Of a stretch of 64,000 nucleotides of DNA, positions 2,815 through 63,717 are shown in pieces. Source of the stretch: Aphrocallistes beatrix (lineage: Eukaryota; Porifera; Hexactinellida; Sceptrulophora; Aphrocallistidae); assembly GCA_963281255.1 (NCBI GenBank), contig OY725488.1, positions 2,455,986-2,519,985 on the forward strand, written 5' to 3'. The position numbers were made by a program, and so were the translations under genes. The notes under the pieces are model-generated. The model had not been told where the DNA came from and did not search any database. It saw nothing but the letters and a program-made list of their open reading frames with translations. Position 1 is the first letter of the stretch; every line of letters begins with the position of its first letter.

Positions 2815-3700
2815 AATTGATTAGGATGCAAAATAGGTTTTACAAAATTAAGTGTAAATCATAAGAATATTAAATATCAAGATGAAATAAAAAATGCTTT
2901 CAGGTAATTGATAAAATAAACCATGGCCTACTTAACTCAGGCCTCACAGTAGAATGGAAATATTGTACCAGGGATGCAGTCGAAGCCGGTAATTGTTAAT
3001 TAACCACAATATTTTATTCATGTTTATGTATTCACAATTACCCATAACATTTTCATTTAATCATGTTCGTATATACTTTAATTTGTAAAAATAGTATTCA
3101 TATATAATTTAATCATAATAATAAATATTTACATACATTTCTTTTTTGCTCTAGCTACGTACTTACATTTGAAATGCCGACCAGTTGCTCGGCACCTGGC
3201 TGCAAGTGTAACTACAAGTCTGAAGATCGTGTGACTCTTTTCAAGATGCCGCAGAAACCAGATCAACTTATAAGACACGCTTGGGTTCGGGCACTCCGCA
3301 GAGATGATATAGACGAGTTAAAGGCTGTTTACGTCTGCGCGAAGCACTTTAGGACTGAAGATATCGAGTACACGCACAAGGTTCCCAACGGGGAAAGTAC
3401 TTTCGCGAAATCCCTAGAGCGTACCCAAAGCTGAGGGATGATGCTGTACCAGTCTTTCTACCAAGATGTCCCTCATACTACTCCCAATCTGCAGCTAAGC
3501 GAAGTCGTCGGTCTCTCGACTCAAAAGATGACGAGTTCCTCAATCAAGCTTGGACACTTAGCGTGAGATCTGATGCAGAAGAAAAAGAGAGATTCAAGGT
3601 TAGCTGCTTCCAGGAAATGCAAGGTAAGTTATCACTTATTTCTTTACCTAAAACCTGGTCATTATGGAACCCAGATGAACATTTTATTTTTATGCGTCCT

Positions 3701-6600: not shown

Positions 6601-6745
6601 TCATTTTCAACGAGGTTTAATCATAAGCTAATATTGTTATTGTTTTGTCGCAGTATTGGATACACTGTCAATACAGAATAGTATTATAATTATTAATGTA
6701 GTAATGAATAAAAAGGCTCACTAATCATTTTTAAAAATTCTATAC

Positions 6746-7135
6746 CGATTTTCTATATAACGACGATGGAGTATCTGAGCAGCAGCATGTGCGGATTGAT
6801 GAGACACCATTTGAACATAGCATTCTCCAGTCGGGTGTCCTTTCTGATTAAATACAAAGTGAATACCCCTAGGAATGATTGCATCAGAAAGATTACAAAA
6901 GAAATCTAATATATCATCCACAGTGGCAGAAAATGGAAGTCCTCTTAAACGTACGCAGTCGTCCTCACTCCTGACGATTTCATTAGAAAGTTCAGAACAC
7001 AAATCATTTGGAAATCCTTTACTTGATTTCGCATTTGTATCCAATCCAATAATATTTCCAAAAGAATTTGGCACTTCTTGTCTGTAAGTTACTTGAAGTA
7101 ATTCCCCAATATTTGATTTGAATATTTCAATATAT
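6746..7135 (-). CDS. fus/ESRP-like: ESRP/Fusilli-type splicing regulator, exon with RRM3
   Basis: This is an internal exon of 390 nt (130 codons). ESRP/Fusilli proteins bind GU-rich pre-mRNA through three quasi-RRMs and control alternative splicing in the nucleus. The acceptor TTTTTAAATTAG precedes an exon that starts A|TAT ATT GAA (Tyr-Ile-Glu), completing the end of RRM2. A 50-residue linker follows, then RRM3 with RNP2-like RLRGLPF, SATVDDILDFF, and RNP1-like PTGECYVQM. The block matches ESRP RRM3 more closely than other quasi-RRM families (hnRNP F/H, GRSF1). The donor CG|GTATAG at 6746/6745 interrupts an Arg codon at the same place as in the RRM2 exon. Reading past this donor would hit a stop after nine residues, so a splice here is inferred. 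No following exon is recognised between 1 and 6745. This is the most host-like coding sequence in the window, with no damage. Confidence 0.85.
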
Positions 7136-7170
7136 CTAATTTAAAAATGTAATATAAACTAATCATAAAA

Positions 7171-43096: not shown

Positions 43097-44448
43097 CAGT
43101 CTGTTTCATAATTATTTACAATTTTTGAGTTGATTTTGAATGACTATAACTTACTATGTAATCTGTTATGCAGTACTTCAATGCAATTTTTCTCAACTAT
43201 ACACTCATTCTAACGATTTCTATTGATACCTTTCCAACTGTCTGATACCCAACTTTTTTTTAAAAATTTATTCACTTCCGGCTGGCATTTTTCTCTCTTT
43301 TTGGTCTCGAAGTTAATTCTGACAGCTAGTTAAGGTAATTCAACTAATTTTCAGCGAATAATGCAGAAACAACGTAGAGAAGATGTGGCTAAGCTCATTG
43401 AAACTTCAAAACTTCCAATGAAGGACATTGCTTCTATGTCTGGTGTCACCCTGAAGACGTCTTATAATGTTAAGCAACGGATTTCAGCGGGCGAAAGCAT
43501 TGAGCACATGGGTGGAGCTGGGCCTAAAAGGTGCCTCAACAGAGGAGACAGGTTCTCACTCTCTCTAAATATTAAAAACAATCCCCGAATTTCTTTGCGG
43601 ACTATGCAGAGTAGTCTAAAGGTTTCACGAGGAGTTGATGTGTCGTATTCAACGGTGAGGAGATGCATCAAAGAGATGTCCTATTCCAAGAGAATTGCCA
43701 TCAAAGGACCAAATAATACTCCCTCCTATGAAGCATTGATAGTTTTATGGGCTAAGAAGCACAAGTTCATCAATTGGAACATGATCTTCTTTACGGATGA
43801 GTGTGCCATTTAAGTCCAGATGTGGACCAAGGGTACTCAAAAGCCCGTCATCAACATTTCGAGACATTCACCCAAGATCCATATTTGGGGAGGGATATCT
43901 ACTAGAGGAACTACTCCTGTGCATATTTTTAGAGAGAATTTCAATTCTATCGCATATTGTAATGTGATAAATGAATGTTTGATAGAGACAGCAGACCTAC
44001 TCTATCCAGACGGTTGGAAACTCCAGGAGGATAATTCAAGTATTCATAAATCCAAGCTCTCTGTCTCATACAAAGAGGAACGCGCCATTAAATGCCTAGA
44101 TTGGCCATCCTGCAGCCCTGATTTGAATCCTATAGATAATTTATGGGCTGCCCTGAAGAAAAAGATTCTAAACAGAGCTCCTAAGACGATCGAATATGTC
44201 AAAAACTATGTGGATATAGAGTGGGGAACCTTTGATCCTGAATTCATTGGCAACTTCACAAAATCTATGCGAAAGCGGTGCGACCTTGTGATTGCTGCTC
44301 AAGGCAAAAGATTAACTATTAAACCATATCCTATTTAATTGTTACTAAGGGGCCATAGAACCAAAATAAAACTTGAATGAGTATATATCAACTTGAGTTA
44401 TCAAGTTGCATTGGGTATAATAATTGTAAATAATTATGAAAAAGACTG
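43097..44448 (+). mobile_element. Tc1-like element, 1352 bp
   Basis: CAGTCTGTTTCATAATTATT... and its inverse ending ...AATTATGAAAAAGACTG are about 27-bp inverted repeats with one mismatch. TA on both sides (43095-43096 and 44449-44450). It carries a single long transposase frame. Confidence 0.9.
43361..44338 (+). pseudogene. Tc1-like transposase with one in-frame stop
   Basis: Tc1-type transposases bind the terminal repeats with a bipartite paired-like domain and cut with a DDE centre. The frame from ATG at 43361 to TAA at 44338 is 325 codons, a normal length, with a single stop (TAA, 43811-43813) just after FFTDECAI, where the Asp is the first catalytic residue. N-terminal helix-turn-helix regions cover about residues 1-110. 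The second Asp is in LQEDNSSIH. The third position reads NPIDNLW with Asp where Tc1 relatives usually have NPIENLW, and 34 residues lie between the two, so the signature here is DD34D. No frameshifts. It is the least damaged transposase in the window. The Glu-to-Asp change may be a decay mutation or a lineage trait. Confidence 0.9.
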
Positions 44449-47322: not shown

Positions 47323-49393
47323 CAACTCAAGGAAAGGTATATATATATAAATCAAATGATACGCCTATTTTTATCTAAGTCAAATTTGAGAACCACTGTC
47401 TTCAATGATAAAACTTGAGTAGCATAAAATATTATAACTCGCCAATCGTTTGCTGTGTAATCCAAACTGTTAACTGACTAAGGGTAAATACGGGCAGGTA
47501 AGAAAAATATCCTACAGCTATAATAATTTGAGGTTGTTCCTGTCTTTGTCTGGCTGAAATATTAGTTAATCTGAAGTGACACCACGTCAATAAATCGAAT
47601 ATATCAGTGAAAGCTATACTTCGTCTTTATATATAGCAGTGAAGTCCTTATAATGTTGATTTCAAAAATTCTGAACATCCACTCCAGGTAAAGGTAGTCC
47701 AACTAGCTTCTCCAATAATTTGGGCAAATATTTTAGGGAATTTTTAAATCTTCCTAAGCATTTCCATTAGTTATTTTAGACATTGCGCGAAATTTAAGAT
47801 CATACTTACATTTACGGAACCTAGTTATGTACTTTCTAGCAAGCATGCCATATGTACCTTAGGAGCATGTTCTCGGTACTTTGGAAGAATGCTCTATGTC
47901 CCTTAGGAGCATACTCCTTGTACGTTTTGTTACCTTTGATAATATTTCATTAAGCTCAATTTGATGTGCAGGGCTAAGCAAAACCATACTTACCAATTAA
48001 AGCAGGTCTTATCTTGTTTGTAACAATCGCAAATCTCTCACTAGGGCATTCATTCCTACTTTGTTACAGTGTGTGATATCTTTGAAATTTCTGGGTGTAT
48101 ATCAAGATAAAGTTCATTAAAATCGTTATCAAATGATGTTGAATCATCATCGGGTAAAGGAATATGTTTGGTGCAGGAATAATCATCTAAGTAGGCAATG
48201 GATCAAATAACAGGAGGAACTAATGTAATGTTATTTTCAATATTAAATCCTTCAAATAAAGTCATGCAAAAGTAGCAATCAGTTGAATGATCTCGTTGTT
48301 CAAGCGATATGATTAGTGCTCAAAAACTAAGCATGAATATGTTTAGTAAACTACTGTAACATACTAGAGGTACATTCCAAGCACCAATAAGTCACCAAGC
48401 CAAAAAATAAGAAATCACCGGATTTGCACAACAAGACATGAGAAATTTCAAAAGTTATTGAATTTTTGCAAAAATATATAATTCTATTTCCACTATCATG
48501 AAAGCTTCCTGTCATACATCATTATTCAATATTACTCCGGGAACAGTAATCTTCAATAAATGATTTATTGGACTGTAGTTATGAAGTTCGGGGATGTATA
48601 TTTATACTAAGAGATAATTTAGAAAGTTTGAAGAAGCCCTTCTATAACATAGTTTTCTTGAGTCGTTATATAACTGTTCTTTTTTACCAATTATTCTAAC
48701 GATTTATTAAATAAGCGCTTTTCAAAAAGAGCTGAAACCGTAGTGCTGGGCATCTAAAACGAATATCGTATCAAAGCAATTAAATCTGTCAAAACCTATA
48801 ATTTCGCTGCAGTTTGCTCTCCGAAATGACTATTTTAGTCAATATAAAAAAATATCCTTATTTAGAAAAAAGTCTCGAGGAAATTGATGTGAGTTAGTAT
48901 ATAGCCATTTTCAGAATAATTTAGTTTCCAAGTAATACAATAGCAACCGTGGGATGTTAACTTTCATCATTATATCACTTCATTCCACTTTGCAAGATTA
49001 TTTCAGTTAAACTTGATGTCTCAAAAGCAAAAAAGATTGTAAAATATATTTGCCAAAATTGGCTTTCATCCAAATAGTTCGGCAGATATTGACGAATATA
49101 GTTTATCTTTTCACAATAAGATATGTGGCTGCTATTTCCAACAAACTTTATCAGGAATTGTCCTGCTAACAAAGTTCTAAGTGTGAATCTTAGTGTGAAA
49201 AGGTAAAAGTATATTCGTGAAGCTCGTCGGTAAATTTTACAGTTTAGCGGTTATTGACTTATGCAAATAAATAAGTGCGTACAAACCCACGGCCAGAACA
49301 GGCCAATAATATATCTAGGGAAACATCAAGAAATAGAAATAGATTTACAACAAAGGAATAGTCAGTTATTTAAATAATTTTGGCATATCTTAC
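47323..49393. other. Gene-free intronic stretch
   Basis: No ORF or repeat termini. A short local repeat of CCTTAGGAGCAT (47858-47925) is present. Confidence 0.45.
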
Positions 49394-49696
49394 CTATCTT
49401 GTAGATTCGTTCTATCAAGTAAAAGTGCATCTTCGAGGTCTTTTTCATCTTTAAATAAGACAAATGCATCACCAGATGGAAGAAAATTCTCATTCTCTAT
49501 AATTAAAACTCCTTTACTGCCTTGTAAAACTTGAGAATGTTTGCATATAAATTCTGAAATATCATCTGCAGTACATCTAAAAGGCAGCCCTCTTAAACGG
49601 GCAACAGATTTAAAGAAGTTCTCAGCTTTATCTGGAAAATATTGATGAGAAAGTTGTTTAAAAAGATTAGCATTGGCTGGAAGAACCTCTATATAT
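49394..49696 (-). CDS. fus/ESRP-like: ESRP/Fusilli-type splicing regulator, exon with RRM2
   Basis: This is an internal exon of 303 nt (101 codons), upstream of the RRM3 exon at 6746-7135. The acceptor TTTCTTTATCGCTTAG is followed by A|TAT ATA GAG (Tyr-Ile-Glu-Val), completing RRM1. A linker of about 30 residues leads into RRM2: VARLRGLPF (RNP2-like), CTADDISEF, VLIIEN and PSGDAFVLF (RNP1-like). It ends LQDAG... at donor GATAG|GTAAGA inside an Arg codon (last full residues Leu-Gln-Asp). Joined to the RRM3 exon this restores Arg-Tyr-Ile-Glu in frame, which strongly supports both splice sites. PSGDAFVLF is the RNP1 typical of ESRP RRM2. The intron to the next exon is 42,258 bp. No RRM1 exon is recognised between 49.7 and 64 kb. 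Confidence 0.85.
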
Positions 49697-50318
49697 CTAA
49701 GCGATAAAGAAATAAAAGTTAGCTATAATAATTAAAATTTGCATTCTTGAAGGAATTGAAAGCATATTACAATTATAATTAGAGGATTTTAGTTAAAAAT
49801 AAATAATGTCATCATTGAATGATAAATCATTGCCTACTCTACATAAGAGTCGCCATCGGGATGAATAATTTTCGATATCATTCAGAACAACAATATTTTG
49901 CTTCATTTTTAACAAACTATGTTAAAATAACAGTAAATAGACGTTCGTGATAGCTCGCTCTCATTTGTTTCTATCCTCGTAATCTACTCTTAAACTCTTA
50001 GTCTTCATCAATGTTTTATTTTCAACTCTTTCGCGGGTATGACGGCCTCAAACAATTTTTTAAAAAACCTCTGTGCAAACAAGCGAAGCGCGCTTGTGAT
50101 ATATGAAACAGGGTAATAAGTCCTTTAACTATATTCCAAATAATAGATACTTTACCACATGTCTTACTATGTTTTTTCTCTATTTATCACCCTGTATGCT
50201 TGAAGACAATCGAAATATACGAGATATCGTAGTTATTTCTAGAGGGTATATCATCAATTGTTATGACTTCATCAGGCACAATCCTCTCGAAGTAAATTAT
50301 TTCAGTGGTTTCCAAGGG
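49697..50318. other. Intronic stretch with a P-like terminus and a Rep-A scrap
   Basis: CATTGCCTACTCTACATAAG (about 49829) resembles the P-like termini. ACAAGCGAAGCGCGCTTGTG (50080-50101) is the 3' scrap of Rep-A. No supported gene. Confidence 0.4.
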
Positions 50319-53114: not shown

Positions 53115-55462
53115 ATGTCTTCTTCTGAGAGTTCAGCTAAAAAGCCTAAGTTTGCACAGCCGATATTAAGCCATTTTCTCCAAGCACAATCAAGTCTATC
53201 AACACTCACTTCACCTGACTGTGATCCAGGTTCTCAGTCCCCTGAGAGCCCAAATGAATGCATTACCCTCTCACAACAGGAATCTGCAGAACTACACCAA
53301 ATTACGCCACAACCACCAGTCCAAGTCGGACAAGATTTTAACCCATATCTAGTAGATAAAGAAACACACTGTCATGGCAATCAGAAGTTTAATAAAGCTT
53401 GGCTTGCCGAAATTCCCTGGCTACGTTACCATACAAATTTGGATTTGTGCTGGTGCTCTGTTTGTGTCTGGGGTTTGAATGCTGACATGTTACCAGTTAG
53501 TGAGAACAAACACAGGTCTGCAGAGAGCAGCTTTATCACTGGATGGAATAATTGGCATGGTGGTAAGTCGAAGCTTCAGAGACATACAAGGAGCTGATGC
53601 CGGTACGCTTAAATTTGGCAGGTGTCAAGGCTGCTCACGAGAATCAGCTAACGATTTGGGCCCAAGTAAGCAGCACGAAGAAACGGGAAATGCAAAGGAA
53701 TAGGATTGGCCTTGATGCTGTTATTTCTAGCATACAACTCTTGGCTAGACAAGGAATGCCGCTACGAGGCCATGGCGAAGAAAAAGATACAGCAAATATC
53801 TGGCAGGAAGTTAAACTAATTTCAAATTTCAATGAGGATGTAAAATCATACTTTATTTCGTCTGGATACAAGTTTATGTCAGTACCAATACAGAATGAGT
53901 GTCTCAAGATGTTAGGTGTACTGGATATAATTGTTGAGAAGATCAAGAGGTCCGTTTGGTTTACATGTATCATGGATGAGACTCAAGACATCTCAACACT
54001 TGAGCAAGTTTGCATCTGTATGAGATATGTAGACGATTCAGATCTTAGTGTGCGGGAAGATTTTTTAGGATTTCATAACATAGTTGGTACTACAGCAGTA
54101 TAACTCCACAAGATACTTACCAAGACGATAAAAACTCTTGGTCTTGACATGGAGAATTGCCGAGGTCAGAATGTTTCTGGTCATGTTTCTGGTTTGCTAA
54201 CATTATTTAGGAATCATCATCCAAAAGCCCTGTATTCCCACTGCGCTGGCCATAATCTTAATTTAGTGCTGAATGATGTTGCAAAGGAAGTTCGCCAGTG
54301 TTATCATATCGTGACTCTCGTAGGTAAGATCGGGATATATGTGAAGGATTCAGCGAAAAGAAAATCATATTTCGATCAGATACGAGTTGCAAACTCAGAA
54401 GACGGTAAGATAAGCAACTCAAATATCCGTTCCATATGTCCAACAAGATGGATTCTAGGATACCCTGCAGTCAATGCTATTTTAGAAAATTACGAGGATC
54501 TTCTTGACTTCCTGTGCTCCTCAATTGATAACGAAAACAAGGCTCAAGGATATGTTAGAGAACTTCAACGCTTTGAAGTCTATTTTGGAGTACGCATTCT
54601 ACATCGTATCTTTGGTCAAGTTCACCCAGTTCACAATGCAATCCAATCAGAATCTATGTCACTGCGGGAGTGTTCAAGTATAGTAACTGCACTCACTGCT
54701 GCATTGAGAATAGACGGAGAATCTGTGGACATTTTTAGCGTTTTCATGACTAGCTGTAAGTCTTCGGCATTGGCTATGGGTATTGATTTTCCTGTAGTTC
54801 CTCGAGGTCTCGCGAAAATGGTGAATAGAGGAAATAGGGTTGAATGGGAAATTGATGACATCGTTGTCAATAACTATTATTATGGTATTTGGACAAAGAT
54901 GTATAGCTCTTCAGTAGGTTCGCTGACAAAGCGTTTTCAAGGAAAGGCAATTGACATTGCACGGGATTTTCAAGACATGTTGTCCAATATGAGCGAAGAT
55001 TCTATTTATGAATTCTCTAGCATGAACTCGCTCATGGAGCTCTACAATACTGACATTAATTGGAAACTGTTGAAGTTGGAGATGATACAATGGGATCGTG
55101 TTAGTAAGATATCCAACCCTACCAAACACACGACTGATATGAAGTACCTTCACAAGTATCTTTCTGAGAAGTCTGATCATCGTCTAATGTGGCCTAATTT
55201 GGAGTTATTTCTTAAGCTCCACCTTCTTCTTCCTTGTACATCTTGCTCTGCCGAACGTGGATTTAGCTGTTTAAGACGAATAAAAACATATCTGCGCAGT
55301 ACAATGACAGAAGACAGACTAAATGCATGTGCATTATGCAATGTACATCATGAAATATTGGACAAATTGGATATTGGCAAAATTACTGACGGTTGGATTA
55401 AGATGAGTGAGGTCAGGATGAATAGATTTGTGCTAAGTAAAGACAGCTTAAGGGATTACTAG
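53115..55462 (+). pseudogene. hAT transposase (TTF zinc finger, DUF4371, C-terminal dimer domain), ZMYM-like
   Basis: hAT transposases of this ZMYM1-like group insert with 8-bp duplications. Order: a Ser/Pro-rich start (53115), WHYH-like TTF zinc finger with LCWCSVC (about residue 115), then a frameshift near 53593, after HTRS; DUF4371-like region VKAAHENQLTIW, and IMDETQDIS with the first catalytic Asp; a TAA at 54101-54103; then LDMENCRGQ joined straight to NVSGHVSG. Relatives have a short Tyr-Asp-Gly-Ala-type block here bearing a catalytic Asp, which seems deleted. HCAGHNLNL, TRW and the dimerisation block CSAERGFSCLRRIKTYLRST are intact, to TAG at 55462. Three lesions in about 780 codons, so it is a fairly young but dead copy. 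Confidence 0.85.
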
Positions 55463-59180: not shown

Positions 59181-59546
59181 AATATCCAAGAAAAATGCAC
59201 GAAATTTCACTCCTATTTGACATTCATATTTAAAATTAAAATAGAACATCACTTGCAATTTAAAAACATTACAATTACATGATAAATTATAGTTTTGGAG
59301 AGGAGCGGCTAGATAAACCAGCCACCTCTCTCGAATCAGCCAGTGACTAATTGGTACTTTTCATTAGAAATACATTAATAACTGCTAGAAAGGAATAGAA
59401 AATGATGAATAGCAGTATTTCTTAAAGTTAACAAAGTAAAAAAAAATTTTTTTAAGACTCCCAAAGATTGGAAAACAAGTTGGCCCAGAGGATTTTGAAA
59501 ATTTCCAATTTTTAAAATACTTTCAAAAGAGTATTTAATGTTAATA

Positions 59547-59994
59547 CAGCGGAAACAGGTTATAAGAACATCGTTGGGAATTGAAAAAAATGTTCTTATA
59601 ACCGATATGTTCTTATAACAGTATTTCGGTTATAAGAACATGTTCTTATAACCGACATAAGAAGTCAGATATTTCGGTGAACATATTTTGTTCTTTTTAT
59701 CGGCTATAAGATTGGTCCGTAACCTAATAAATAGCAGTAAGCTCGAAAAAGTAAGTGAGGTAGAAGATGCAGGAGTCAGAAACTACAAAATTGGTTGTGT
59801 ATGAATGAAAAAATGAGAACTTGACTACTAATAGTTCTAGATTATTGATAGAATGTTCTTATAACCGATATTAGATGTTCTTATAACCGGTTCTGTTTGA
59901 ATAGTAATGAATAGAAAAGAATCCGTTCCCAAATAAATGGTTCTTATAACCGACATGTTCTTATAACCGGTGTTCTTATAACCGATATCCACTG
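59547..59994. mobile_element. Rep-C MITE built from an iterated 14-bp motif, 448 bp
   Basis: TA, CAGCGGAAACAGGTTATAAG... and ...TTCTTATAACCGATATCCACTG, TA. TGTTCTTATAACCG occurs at least seven times, plus inverse GGTTATAAGAACA copies (for example 59563, 59630, 59643, 59852, 59875, 59954 and 59970). It is the richest array of the terminal motif among the Rep-C elements here. Confidence 0.8.
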
Positions 59995-60027
59995 TATTTA
60001 TTTAAACAGAGTATTTTAAAACTAGAA

Positions 60028-62262
60028 AATGCACGTTGTCGGTTTGGAACTTGATAACTATGTCATTCGCTCCACCCAAAGGTTGTTTGAAGTGCAATTT
60101 TTGGAAAGTTATCAACCTATTGAGGTATGCATAACTGAACAAGTTTCGAAGAAATCGTGATTATCTAGACGCAAATTATCGAGATAAAGTTGCATCTTAT
60201 TGAGCAGATTTCATATAGGAAAGAATGAATATGAACCTATTCGACATAAATTCAATATTCTCAAATCGACCAGAGATTCTTATAGAAAGGTAAAGAAATT
60301 GGAAGAATGGGAGAACAATACAAATTTTTCGATACCATCAGCACATCCCACAAAGAAGCGAATTCTGGCGGAAAAGGTCATCATTGAATCTGATCTATCA
60401 ATGGAAACAAAAAAGCCTTTATCTCAATTAACCTTAAAAGCCTTATGGGGAAGGATTAATCCGCTTTTAAATTTAATCGACTCTTTCGCTGTCAAAGAAG
60501 AAGTTGTTCCGAAAATAATTGTTACCTAAGCTCTAATGCCCATCCATATCTAATTTTTTAAAAGATTTAGTTACTTCTAGTGTTTGCAAACAAAACATAG
60601 CCAAGGGGTCATTTGCAAATGAAATCAATCCCATGCCTATTGATAAGTTAGCATTCATTGATAAGTCAGCATTCATTGATAAGTCAGCATTCAAGAAAAT
60701 ATACCAACTTTGAACATCTTCGTAAATCAGAAAACATCATATTCCCATCCTATTCTAAACTAGCACAATATCGCCATAATGTCAGTCTAACTAATGAGTT
60801 AGTATTCGTGCATAATGAGATTAATGTAGCGATCGGCATTGCGGTATCTCATAAAAGCATCCTACATAATAGTTTAATACGCATGTTCGAAACACTGCCT
60901 CCACTTTCGGATTCCCAATATCCTTTAACCATCAAAATTGCCGACGGTCTTGATGGTTCAGGGTGTCATCAAATTTACAATCAATATGAATTAAACTCAA
61001 CATCCAGCACAAAAAACTACATCCTATCCTATTCGCGCTTAAATTACTCTCCATTTTGGATTCAGATAACAGTCAAGTGTGGATAAATAATATCCCGAAT
61101 TCACAATTTAGAGTTAGGCCTGTTCTATCAGCGGTCCAGAAAGAGTCTATCGATAACGCCAAGTTCATTATGGAAATATCATCAACCCAGAAGTGAATAC
61201 CATTGAACAATTGGGTTTACAGTTCCCACAAGGTTACGTCCATGTAAAAATCATTCGTAGCATGCTCGATGGGAAAATGAGTGGGATTTTAAGTGGTGCT
61301 GGAGGTGCGCACCGTCAATTATGTACGGTAAGCATCAAAGACCTTAAAGACATCGAAATGCTTAGGGCTGGATTTCCGATTAACAGATATTTTTCTGACG
61401 CATGGGAACTGTTTGGATACGTTGACAAAGATGAGTACCTTAGCCTTACTTCTAGCGAAAGGTTGGGAATAACGCACGAACCAATTTCAGAAATAAGCAT
61501 CATGGCTGCTTCACCGCTTCACAGCTATACATGTGTTTTTCGATTATATATGCTATTAATATATCATTTACAAGCTGGAAGATCGATATGGTCACCAACA
61601 TCGAAACATACTGAGATTTCGAGAAGATTTTGCAGTGAATTCCTTTTTGAGAAAGGATTGATCAACATTCGAGTGATGGTGGAACAAACAACCGAAAGTG
61701 TCGCTAGACAGTGTTTTTTAAATAAAAACAATTTCATATTCCATGCATCCACACTTATTCCAGCGAAATTAGAGTTGAGCTGGGTCTCATTCAAAATAAT
61801 CTCCCGGCAAATTTTAAGGATTTACAACAGCAGCCACGGAATCGATACTGAGAAATTGGAAACTCTAGCCAAAGAAACTCACGAAATCATTCTTACCACC
61901 TTTCCATGGGCCAGCATAACACCTCTACACAAGCTACTAGCCCAATGTGTTGAATTGATACAGGACTGTAACAATGGCTACGGTTTAAAGGAATATTCAG
62001 AAGAAGGCTTGTCATTAGCTAATTCGACGATTCAGAGAGCATCTCTCCCGAAGAAATTCATTCACATCTAACATCAAAGATGTATTTATACGTCTTCTTA
62101 GCCAGAGAGACCAGACCCTTCAGCTACCGAAGAACTTTAGTTTGTAAGCATTGTGGTCAAATAGGAAATATCAGGAATATGCAATGTAAAGGTAACCGAG
62201 TGCAATCTTTAGAACAGGAAAAACTAGTTGAATCTCTCATGCTCCAAATTATTAATATTTAA
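60028..62262 (+). pseudogene. RAG1/Transib-like DDE transposase relic
   Basis: Coding blocks run through changing frames: 60028-60159; 60190-60529; 60658-61065; about 61050-61185; 61188-62071; 62073-62262. They follow the order of the RAG1 catalytic core. First Asp: KIADGLDGSGCHQIYNQ (about 60945), compare RAG1 D600. Second: SMLDGKMSGILSGAGG (about 61265), with a Cys 18 residues later, compare D708 and C727 (19 apart); the partner Cys is Ser here. Near the end PLHKLLAQCVELIQD compares with the zinc His pair H937/H942 (second His is Gln). YSEEGLSLAN compares with SEGNE bearing E962. A CKHCGQIGNIRNMQC-type Cys tail closes the protein. At least five frameshifts make it inactive. Transib, RAG-like and Chapaev-type families cannot be separated here. 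No RSS-like ends or 5-bp duplication found. Confidence 0.65.
60636..60693 (+). repeat. 18-bp tandem repeat (3 copies) in the RAG1-like relic
   Basis: ATTGATAAGTCAGCATTC is repeated three times (the first with one change), filling the break between the N-terminal and core blocks. Confidence 0.7.
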
Positions 62263-62488
62263 CTCAGTATAAAACCTTAGTATGGCACTTATAAGTCGTA
62301 ATTTAGTTAAATAACTCTTAACTCTGAAGCCATACAAGTATTTTGAGTTCACTAATTAATTACTAGGTATGAATAACCCAGAGGTAAATAATAGATTTTA
62401 TAGGTCTATCTGGTCAGGAAATAGCAACTCCCTATGAATGGCTCAAATAAACCACTGTGCAATGAATCATAGTATATATATATATATA

Positions 62489-62782: not shown

Positions 62783-63232
62783 GTTTAACTTTGTGTCCGC
62801 TGGAGGCACCATTTGAGCGGCTAGGTACATATAGATTAATTACGGGGTAGATAACATCTCTAAAAACTAAGTACTTCTGTCTGACTTAGTGTTATAATCG
62901 ATATCACACGAAAAATCAAAAATCACTTTTTAATGCATAATGATGACGTCATAACAGAGATGAGTAATCATTTTTTGATGTTTGCTGTGATATTAGTGAA
63001 AAATTTTAATATACATAGTCTATAAAAATTTCAGCCCTCTATCACCTAAAATGGCTGATTTAAAGTCGAAAACAGAAATTTCAAAAAATAAAATAGGTGA
63101 CAATGACGTCATAATTCAATGATGAGTCGACATTCATTCAAGTCAGAACCTAGTGGAGCCATAGCCAAAAGACCCGCAAATGCCAAAAATGACCCTTCTG
63201 TACCAGGCAATTTTTCAATCAATTCGTTACAT
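62783..63232 (-). repeat. Rep-A copy 20
   Basis: Inverse orientation, from AACTTTGTGTCCGCTGGAGG to CAATTCGTTACATATATATG. Two TGACGTCA sites present; the GC-rich terminal part is missing. Confidence 0.7.
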
Positions 63233-63253
63233 ATATATGTATAGTATTAGTAG

Positions 63254-63717
63254 TATATCCTTATTATTAAAACTCGATTAATGTGTATGTGTGTATGTGT
63301 GTATATATCTATCTATCTGTACGAATTGATTGAAGAAACTGCCAAGTACAGAAAGCTGATTTTTTGGCAACTGGGGGTCTTTTGATTATGGCTCCACTAA
63401 GTTCTGAGCTCAGAGTAAAATGTCGACTCATCATGGAATTATGACATCATTGTCACATTTTTAAAAGTTAAGCAATACAGTTATTCGAGCATAACTCAGC
63501 CATTATAGGAGATAGAAGGCTGAAATTTTAATGGAATCTGTATACTAACATACCTCACATATGATGCAACTATAATAAAAAATGATGACTCATCACTTTG
63601 TTATGACGTCATCATTACTCATCAAAATTTTAAAATTTGATAAATTTGGTGATTTTTCGTGCGATATAGATTATAACAGTTGGACAGACGTATTTAGAGA
63701 TGTTATCTCCCTTATAT
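63254..63717 (+). repeat. Rep-A copy 21, cut by another element
   Basis: TATCCTTATTATTAAAACTC, CTGTACGAATTGATTGAAG, both modules (the first TTATGACATCA, the second intact), to GATGTTATCTCCCTTATA. Confidence 0.75.

Follow-up and report, generated by a model that had tools for sequence, protein, structure and literature searches.

Transib transposons are recorded in protostomes, cnidarians and fungi (PMC7204232); bacteria, plants and further animals, among them ctenophores, also have them (PMC9435367). The region through which RAG1 binds RAG2 (alpha11-alpha12) is kept in Subgroup I Transibs and lost in Subgroup II (PMC9435367). RAG1-like (RAG1L) proteins of invertebrates carry a CCGHC tail (PMC7204232). 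In the ends of AanRAGL, spacers of 4 and 13 separate a 13-base-pair (bp) element from a 10-bp one, so that this second element begins at bases 18 and 27 (PMC9435367). That Transibs can have unequal ends has been published before (PMC9435367, PMC8355894). Here we describe a broken transposase region in 64,000 nucleotides from the glass sponge Aphrocallistes beatrix (hereafter the window, positions 2455986-2519985 of contig C1), within a searched genome of 100,537,919 bases in 28 contigs. The feature is almost certainly a defunct Transib-superfamily element, the dead copy of a DNA transposon that is autonomous and moves by cut and paste. No sponge Transib was found by title in the literature searched, which is no proof of absence.

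The relic, its intact relatives and their ends

The original prediction of a RAG1/Transib-like transposase relic is borne out by sequence, by predicted fold, and by the CAC-type ends and 5-bp duplications of intact relatives in the same genome. The open reading frame (ORF) list of the window has the acidic blocks DGLDGSG, MLDGKM and LHKLLAQ...YSEEG in the predicted order on the plus strand, and the Cys-rich tail after these core blocks is the last ORF piece of Table 1. Homology suggests D287, D390 and E641 (numbering of relative L032) as the catalytic residues. The extent first proposed, 60028-62262, shifts: the homologous part is 60208-62459, and 60028-60207 has no match to the intact copy L038. 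Against L038, the DNA is 90% identical across 60208-62309 and 93% identical across 62311-62459. The window copy is dead because the first 684 bases of L038 at the 5' end and 123 at a join near the right end are absent, and because 13 of the 14 indels in its main block (DNA comparison) are not multiples of three. The His of the tail knuckle has become Asn (CKHCGQIGNI vs CKHCGQIGHI in L038). An 18-base unit is repeated three times in tandem at 60639-60693, within the coding region; the matching residues occur once in the L038 protein.

A protein search of the genome with the 304-amino-acid piece gave at least 136 matched stretches, a lower bound on a count in which several stretches may be one copy. 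The closest, L002 (inside L038), lies on another contig and has an open frame of 761 amino acids; residues 6-294 of the 304-residue ORF are 79% identical to it (E 1.2e-145). Further relatives have open frames of 734 and 727 amino acids at 43-44% identity. Intact copies, for which the original prediction had proposed a search, are thus present, some with near-identical copies. They fall into at least eight subfamilies in one genome, labelled F1-F8 in this analysis, and the relic belongs to F2. Element lengths are about 3.4 kilobases (kb) in F1, 3.06 kb in F2, 3.0 kb in F3 and 3.3 kb in F7. Five open elements (three F1, one F2 and one F3) have one long frame each. They contain eight other frames of at least 90 amino acids, seven antisense inside the long frame and one (91 amino acids, L034) beyond it, and none of the five elements has a candidate RAG2L frame. 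Differences among five F1 copies are 0.15-0.79%, and these copies therefore moved recently in evolutionary terms. The protein cores of F1 and F2 are only about 50% identical. Two perfect F1 left ends face each other 5.6 kb apart (G000:C13:1098915 and 1104537), perhaps as a nested or paired element.

The sequence CACAGTGG, which is the heptamer of the recombination signal sequence (RSS) plus G, stands at both ends in F1, F2, F3, F4 and F7, with one F3 end reading CACAATGG; the relic keeps the right end only. That end is CCACTGTG at 62459, beyond the coordinates first proposed. The CAC-type ends and 5-bp duplications that had been suggested as a check are present in the intact relatives. Both ends were found in five of seven F1 loci examined; the 5-bp duplication is exact in four of these five and off by one base in the other. 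The F7 locus L027 has an exact duplication (CAAGA on both sides). Duplications at L038, L039, L042 and L046 are also exact, as the script that selected these loci required; the ends of L038 and L039 coincide, in addition, with the points where their homology stops. Both-end pairs of F5, F6 and F8 were not found.

Behind the terminal sequence, both F1 ends contain a second block, AAAGAATAGG, which is placed at base 18 of one end and base 27 of the other. The corresponding block of F2 differs in sequence (AGGGAGTTG, with one change in copy L039) but not in position, and it lies at base 27 from the relic right end, exactly as in L038. The 18/27 pattern was first noticed in F1 and F2, where it matches at 10/10 and 9/9 bases, compared with 6/9 in F4, 5/9 in F3 and 4/9 in F7. 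The 9-base window at 18/27 was reached in none of 2000 shuffles for F1 or F2, and in 167 for F3, 32 for F4 and 471 for F7. When any position past base 12 was allowed, the best 10-base match was reached in 7 (F1), 48 (F2), 1884 (F3), 629 (F4) and 707 (F7) of 2000 shuffles. Maximal windows occur only at offset 9 in F1, F4 and the F2 copy L038; they tie at 9 and -22 in L039 and at 9, -3 and -18 in F3, and lie at 17 and -1 in F7. The F7 locus L027, used to test the 18/27 prediction, did not show this spacing and had no clear second end block.

In alignment, intact copies have D-x14-C-x2-C, counted from the second catalytic Asp. The spacing from this Asp to a zinc Cys had been taken as almost that of RAG1 (708 to 727). 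This likeness is a coincidence of register, because the lone Cys of the relic is the second of D-x14-C-x2-C, the first having become Arg. Loss of the second zinc His, proposed earlier, stands (it is Gln), while the lost Cys is the first and not the second. A C-x2-C-x4-H-x5-C tail is carried by the proteins of F1, F2 and F7, three of the eight labelled subfamilies, and is absent from F3, F4, F5, F6 and F8. L038 matches a zinc-knuckle Pfam model below threshold (14.5 bits vs 20.8). Judged by its motif, the tail may be equivalent to the CTT1 tail of Subgroup I Transibs. The putative alpha11-alpha12 region has RAG1-like length in the family, but the predicted structure is poor over that segment.

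Identity, alternatives and proposed mechanism

Four features of Transibs occur together in this family: a RAG1-core-like DDE transposase, CAC ends, a 5-bp duplication, and a single gene without RAG2L. Direct support comes from homology and predicted fold, catalytic and zinc residues, CACARTGG ends, 5-bp duplications, and near-identical copies at different sites. Three open copies match HzTransib best in sequence, and the L032 model matches it best in fold. The link of the relic to Transib and RAG1 came through these intact relatives; its own six pieces gave only sub-cut-off Pfam matches, and a phmmer search of PDB with the relic ORF returned a single, unrelated match (E 0.52).

Several results weigh against the identification. 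Pfam has no match above cut-off for the relic. The Pfam RAG1 model (PF12940) matches L032 below threshold (18.3 bits, cut-off 25), does not match L038, and has three matches over the whole genome, all below cut-off. The open frame L042 also has Gln in place of the second zinc His, and pLDDT (predicted local distance difference test) is below 50 over most of residues 388-472 of the L032 model, the zinc segment. Evidence of transposition consists of traces, with no event seen.

The main competitor to a Transib is a RAG1L-type transposon, kin to the two-gene ProtoRAG, that has lost its RAG2L gene. The Cys-Cys-His-Cys tail of F1, F2 and F7 resembles the CCGHC tail reported for invertebrate RAG1L (PMC7204232). 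The segment from the second zinc Cys to the next aligned His has 66-67 residues in the family, 61 in BbRAG1L and 31 in HzTransib, and the 18/27 end geometry is that implied for the two-gene AanRAGL (PMC9435367). However, the core is closer to HzTransib (26.8-27.4% identity) than to BbRAG1L (21.6-23.1%), with bit scores of 86-98 and 26-42, respectively. Pfam finds no N-terminal domain, the five open elements lack a RAG2L frame, and a genome search with the RAG2 family model PF03089 gave no match, its control being silent as well. The family is not a RAG1-RAG2 transposon because its elements contain no RAG2-like gene, and descent from a two-gene ancestor is improbable. In a tree of 14 rows and 169 columns the family forms one group (97) that excludes HzTransib and the RAG pair; the relic stands beside L038 (92), and deeper supports within the family are 49-72. 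The order of Transib and RAG is not given by this tree because it has no outside root. No relatives were found in prokaryote genomes, viral contigs or plasmids, in searches that are weak for bacterial Transibs because their patterns came largely from this family.

Domestication of the window copy as a host gene, in place of a dead transposon, is very unlikely. Exons of an RNA-binding gene are nearby and a frame of 304 amino acids is still open, but the copy has frame-breaking indels relative to an intact one, lacks its 5' end and has lost a zinc Cys and a zinc His, and the genome holds 136 related stretches, all of which speaks for a transposon. An unrelated DDE family (P element, hAT, Chapaev) can be dismissed as next to impossible: P element and Hermes (hAT) are among the fold matches of the model, but the acidic blocks are not matched by chance because of the 79% identity to the open 761-residue frame and the number of matched stretches.

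For the Transib family a mechanism can be proposed by analogy with HzTransib and RAG1. One RAG1-core-like transposase encoded by intact members would bind both element ends; as a dimer it would pair two ends and nick next to CAC. A hairpin would then form on the flanking DNA, freeing the element, which would be inserted elsewhere through cuts staggered by 5 bp. The nick-hairpin chemistry of the family transposase is presumed from these model enzymes. The enzyme may pair a short end with a long end, an NBD-like (nonamer-binding-domain-like) region may bind the second end block, and the zinc-knuckle-like tail may contact DNA. The window copy should be inert because its left end is lost and its frame is shifted.

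Features and surroundings of the relic

Table 1. Coordinates of the relic, its parts and neighbouring features in the window
Feature	Position	Strand	Basis or remark
Transib-type DNA transposon relic, subfamily F2	60208..62459	+	5' end missing, right end kept; DNA identity to L038 2624-5688
Broken transposase coding region	60208..62262	+	ORF list; indels vs L038
ORF pieces of relic	60188-60529, 60537-60713, 60652-61086, 60990-61196, 61157-62071, 62023-62262	+	
ORF piece with first catalytic Asp block DGLDGSG	60652..61086	+	Register with HzTransib and BbRAG1L (= D287 of L032)
304-amino-acid ORF piece, longest	61157..62071	+	Second Asp (MLDGKM), remaining zinc Cys, LHKLLAQ...SEEG
ORF piece with remains of Cys-Cys-His-Cys tail	62023..62262	+	
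Right terminal inverted repeat	62410..62459	+	Reverse complement CACAGTGGTTTATTTGAGCC...; then CAATG
THAP domain frame	3108-3431	+	PF05485, 2.8e-11
RRM frame	6724-7140	-	Resembles epithelial splicing regulatory protein (ESRP)
Reverse transcriptase frame, 434 amino acids	12325-13626	-	PF00078, 1.8e-22; GC-richer, G-skewed patch
Tc-type transposase, two adjoining frames	43334-44335	+	PF01498 at 43334-43810
RRM frame	49393-49722	-	Resembles ESRP
hAT-type transposase, more than one frame	53115-55459	+	PF05699 at 54104-55459
456 bases left of relic	59543-59998		Inverted ends AATACAG...CTGTATT; ATGTTCTTATAACCG repeats in both directions
811-base fold-back	62879-63689		Nested inverted repeats; similar DNA near other loci

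The position of the relic in an intron, as first proposed, is plausible and unproven: the minus strand has exons encoding RNA recognition motifs (RRMs) at 6.7-7.1 and 49.4-49.7 kb, and no exon was found from 49.7 to 64 kb. About 42 kb separate the two ESRP-like frames, with several transposon remains between them. We take the reverse transcriptase frame to belong to a non-LTR (long terminal repeat) element; the fold-back is perhaps a non-autonomous element. The genome has 151 RRM matches (E up to 1) and 19 homeodomain matches (E up to 0.001), the latter seemingly few for a bilaterian. Ten of the 19 homeodomains were read, and are presumably Msx, NK, Islet, Six1/2, three POU, two paired-like and one unsure; none of these ten is a Hox gene. 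The scarcity of homeodomains, the absence of Hox from those read and the abundance of RRMs would tentatively point to a sponge. A genome search for mir-10 found nothing, and its control was silent too.

Comparison with known systems

The relic itself is ordinary in kind, one more Transib fossil, and its intact relatives are the interesting part. The suggestion that it adds a lineage to the RAG/Transib record outside deuterostomes is weak, given that Transibs are already described in many groups and no RAG2-like gene is present here. A more specific proposal is possible, if tentative: a RAG2-free, recently mobile Transib family that has both a zinc-knuckle tail of RAG1L type and AanRAGL-like 18/27 ends (10/19 after an exact RSS heptamer). 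If this is true, the exact short/long end design and the tail would predate the entry of RAG2 into the system, and both would have been lost later in some subfamilies of one genome.

HzTransib (PDB 6pqn/6pqx) shares with the family a single gene, CAC ends and the 5-bp duplication, which are Transib traits (PMC7204232, PMC4411706). It differs in its core (about 27% identical), in a chain about 180 residues shorter at the N terminus than the family proteins, in the shorter zinc Cys-to-His segment given above, and in that three subfamilies here carry the zinc-knuckle-like tail. Compared by description, Subgroup I Transibs (PMC9435367) may share RAG1-length alpha11-alpha12, the Cys-Cys-His-Cys tail and asymmetric ends, each with part of the family, whereas five of the eight subfamilies lack the tail and F7 lacks a clear second end block. 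Unequal two-block ends without RAG2 were already reported for Transibs with 12/23-like ends, with spacers of 12 and 23 +/- 1 after the heptamer (PMC8355894), in contrast to 10 and 19 here.

AanRAGL and ProtoRAG likewise have 5-bp duplications and CAC ends, and AanRAGL has its second block at bases 18/27, as in F1 and F2. Their heptamers are CACACCC in AanRAGL and CACTATG in ProtoRAG (PMC8289069), compared with CACAGTG here; unlike these two systems, the sponge family has no RAG2L gene, and its core identity to BbRAG1L is 22-23%. Vertebrate RAG1 is a host recombinase whose RSS blocks lie 12 and 23 after the heptamer, whereas here a mobile element has its end blocks at 10 and 19. The second end block presumably differs from the RSS nonamer as well. 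The family thus mixes RAG1L-like and insect-Transib-like traits, with open frames and near-identical copies, and offers working material on the order in which unequal ends, the zinc-knuckle tail and RAG2 entered the descent of V(D)J recombination.
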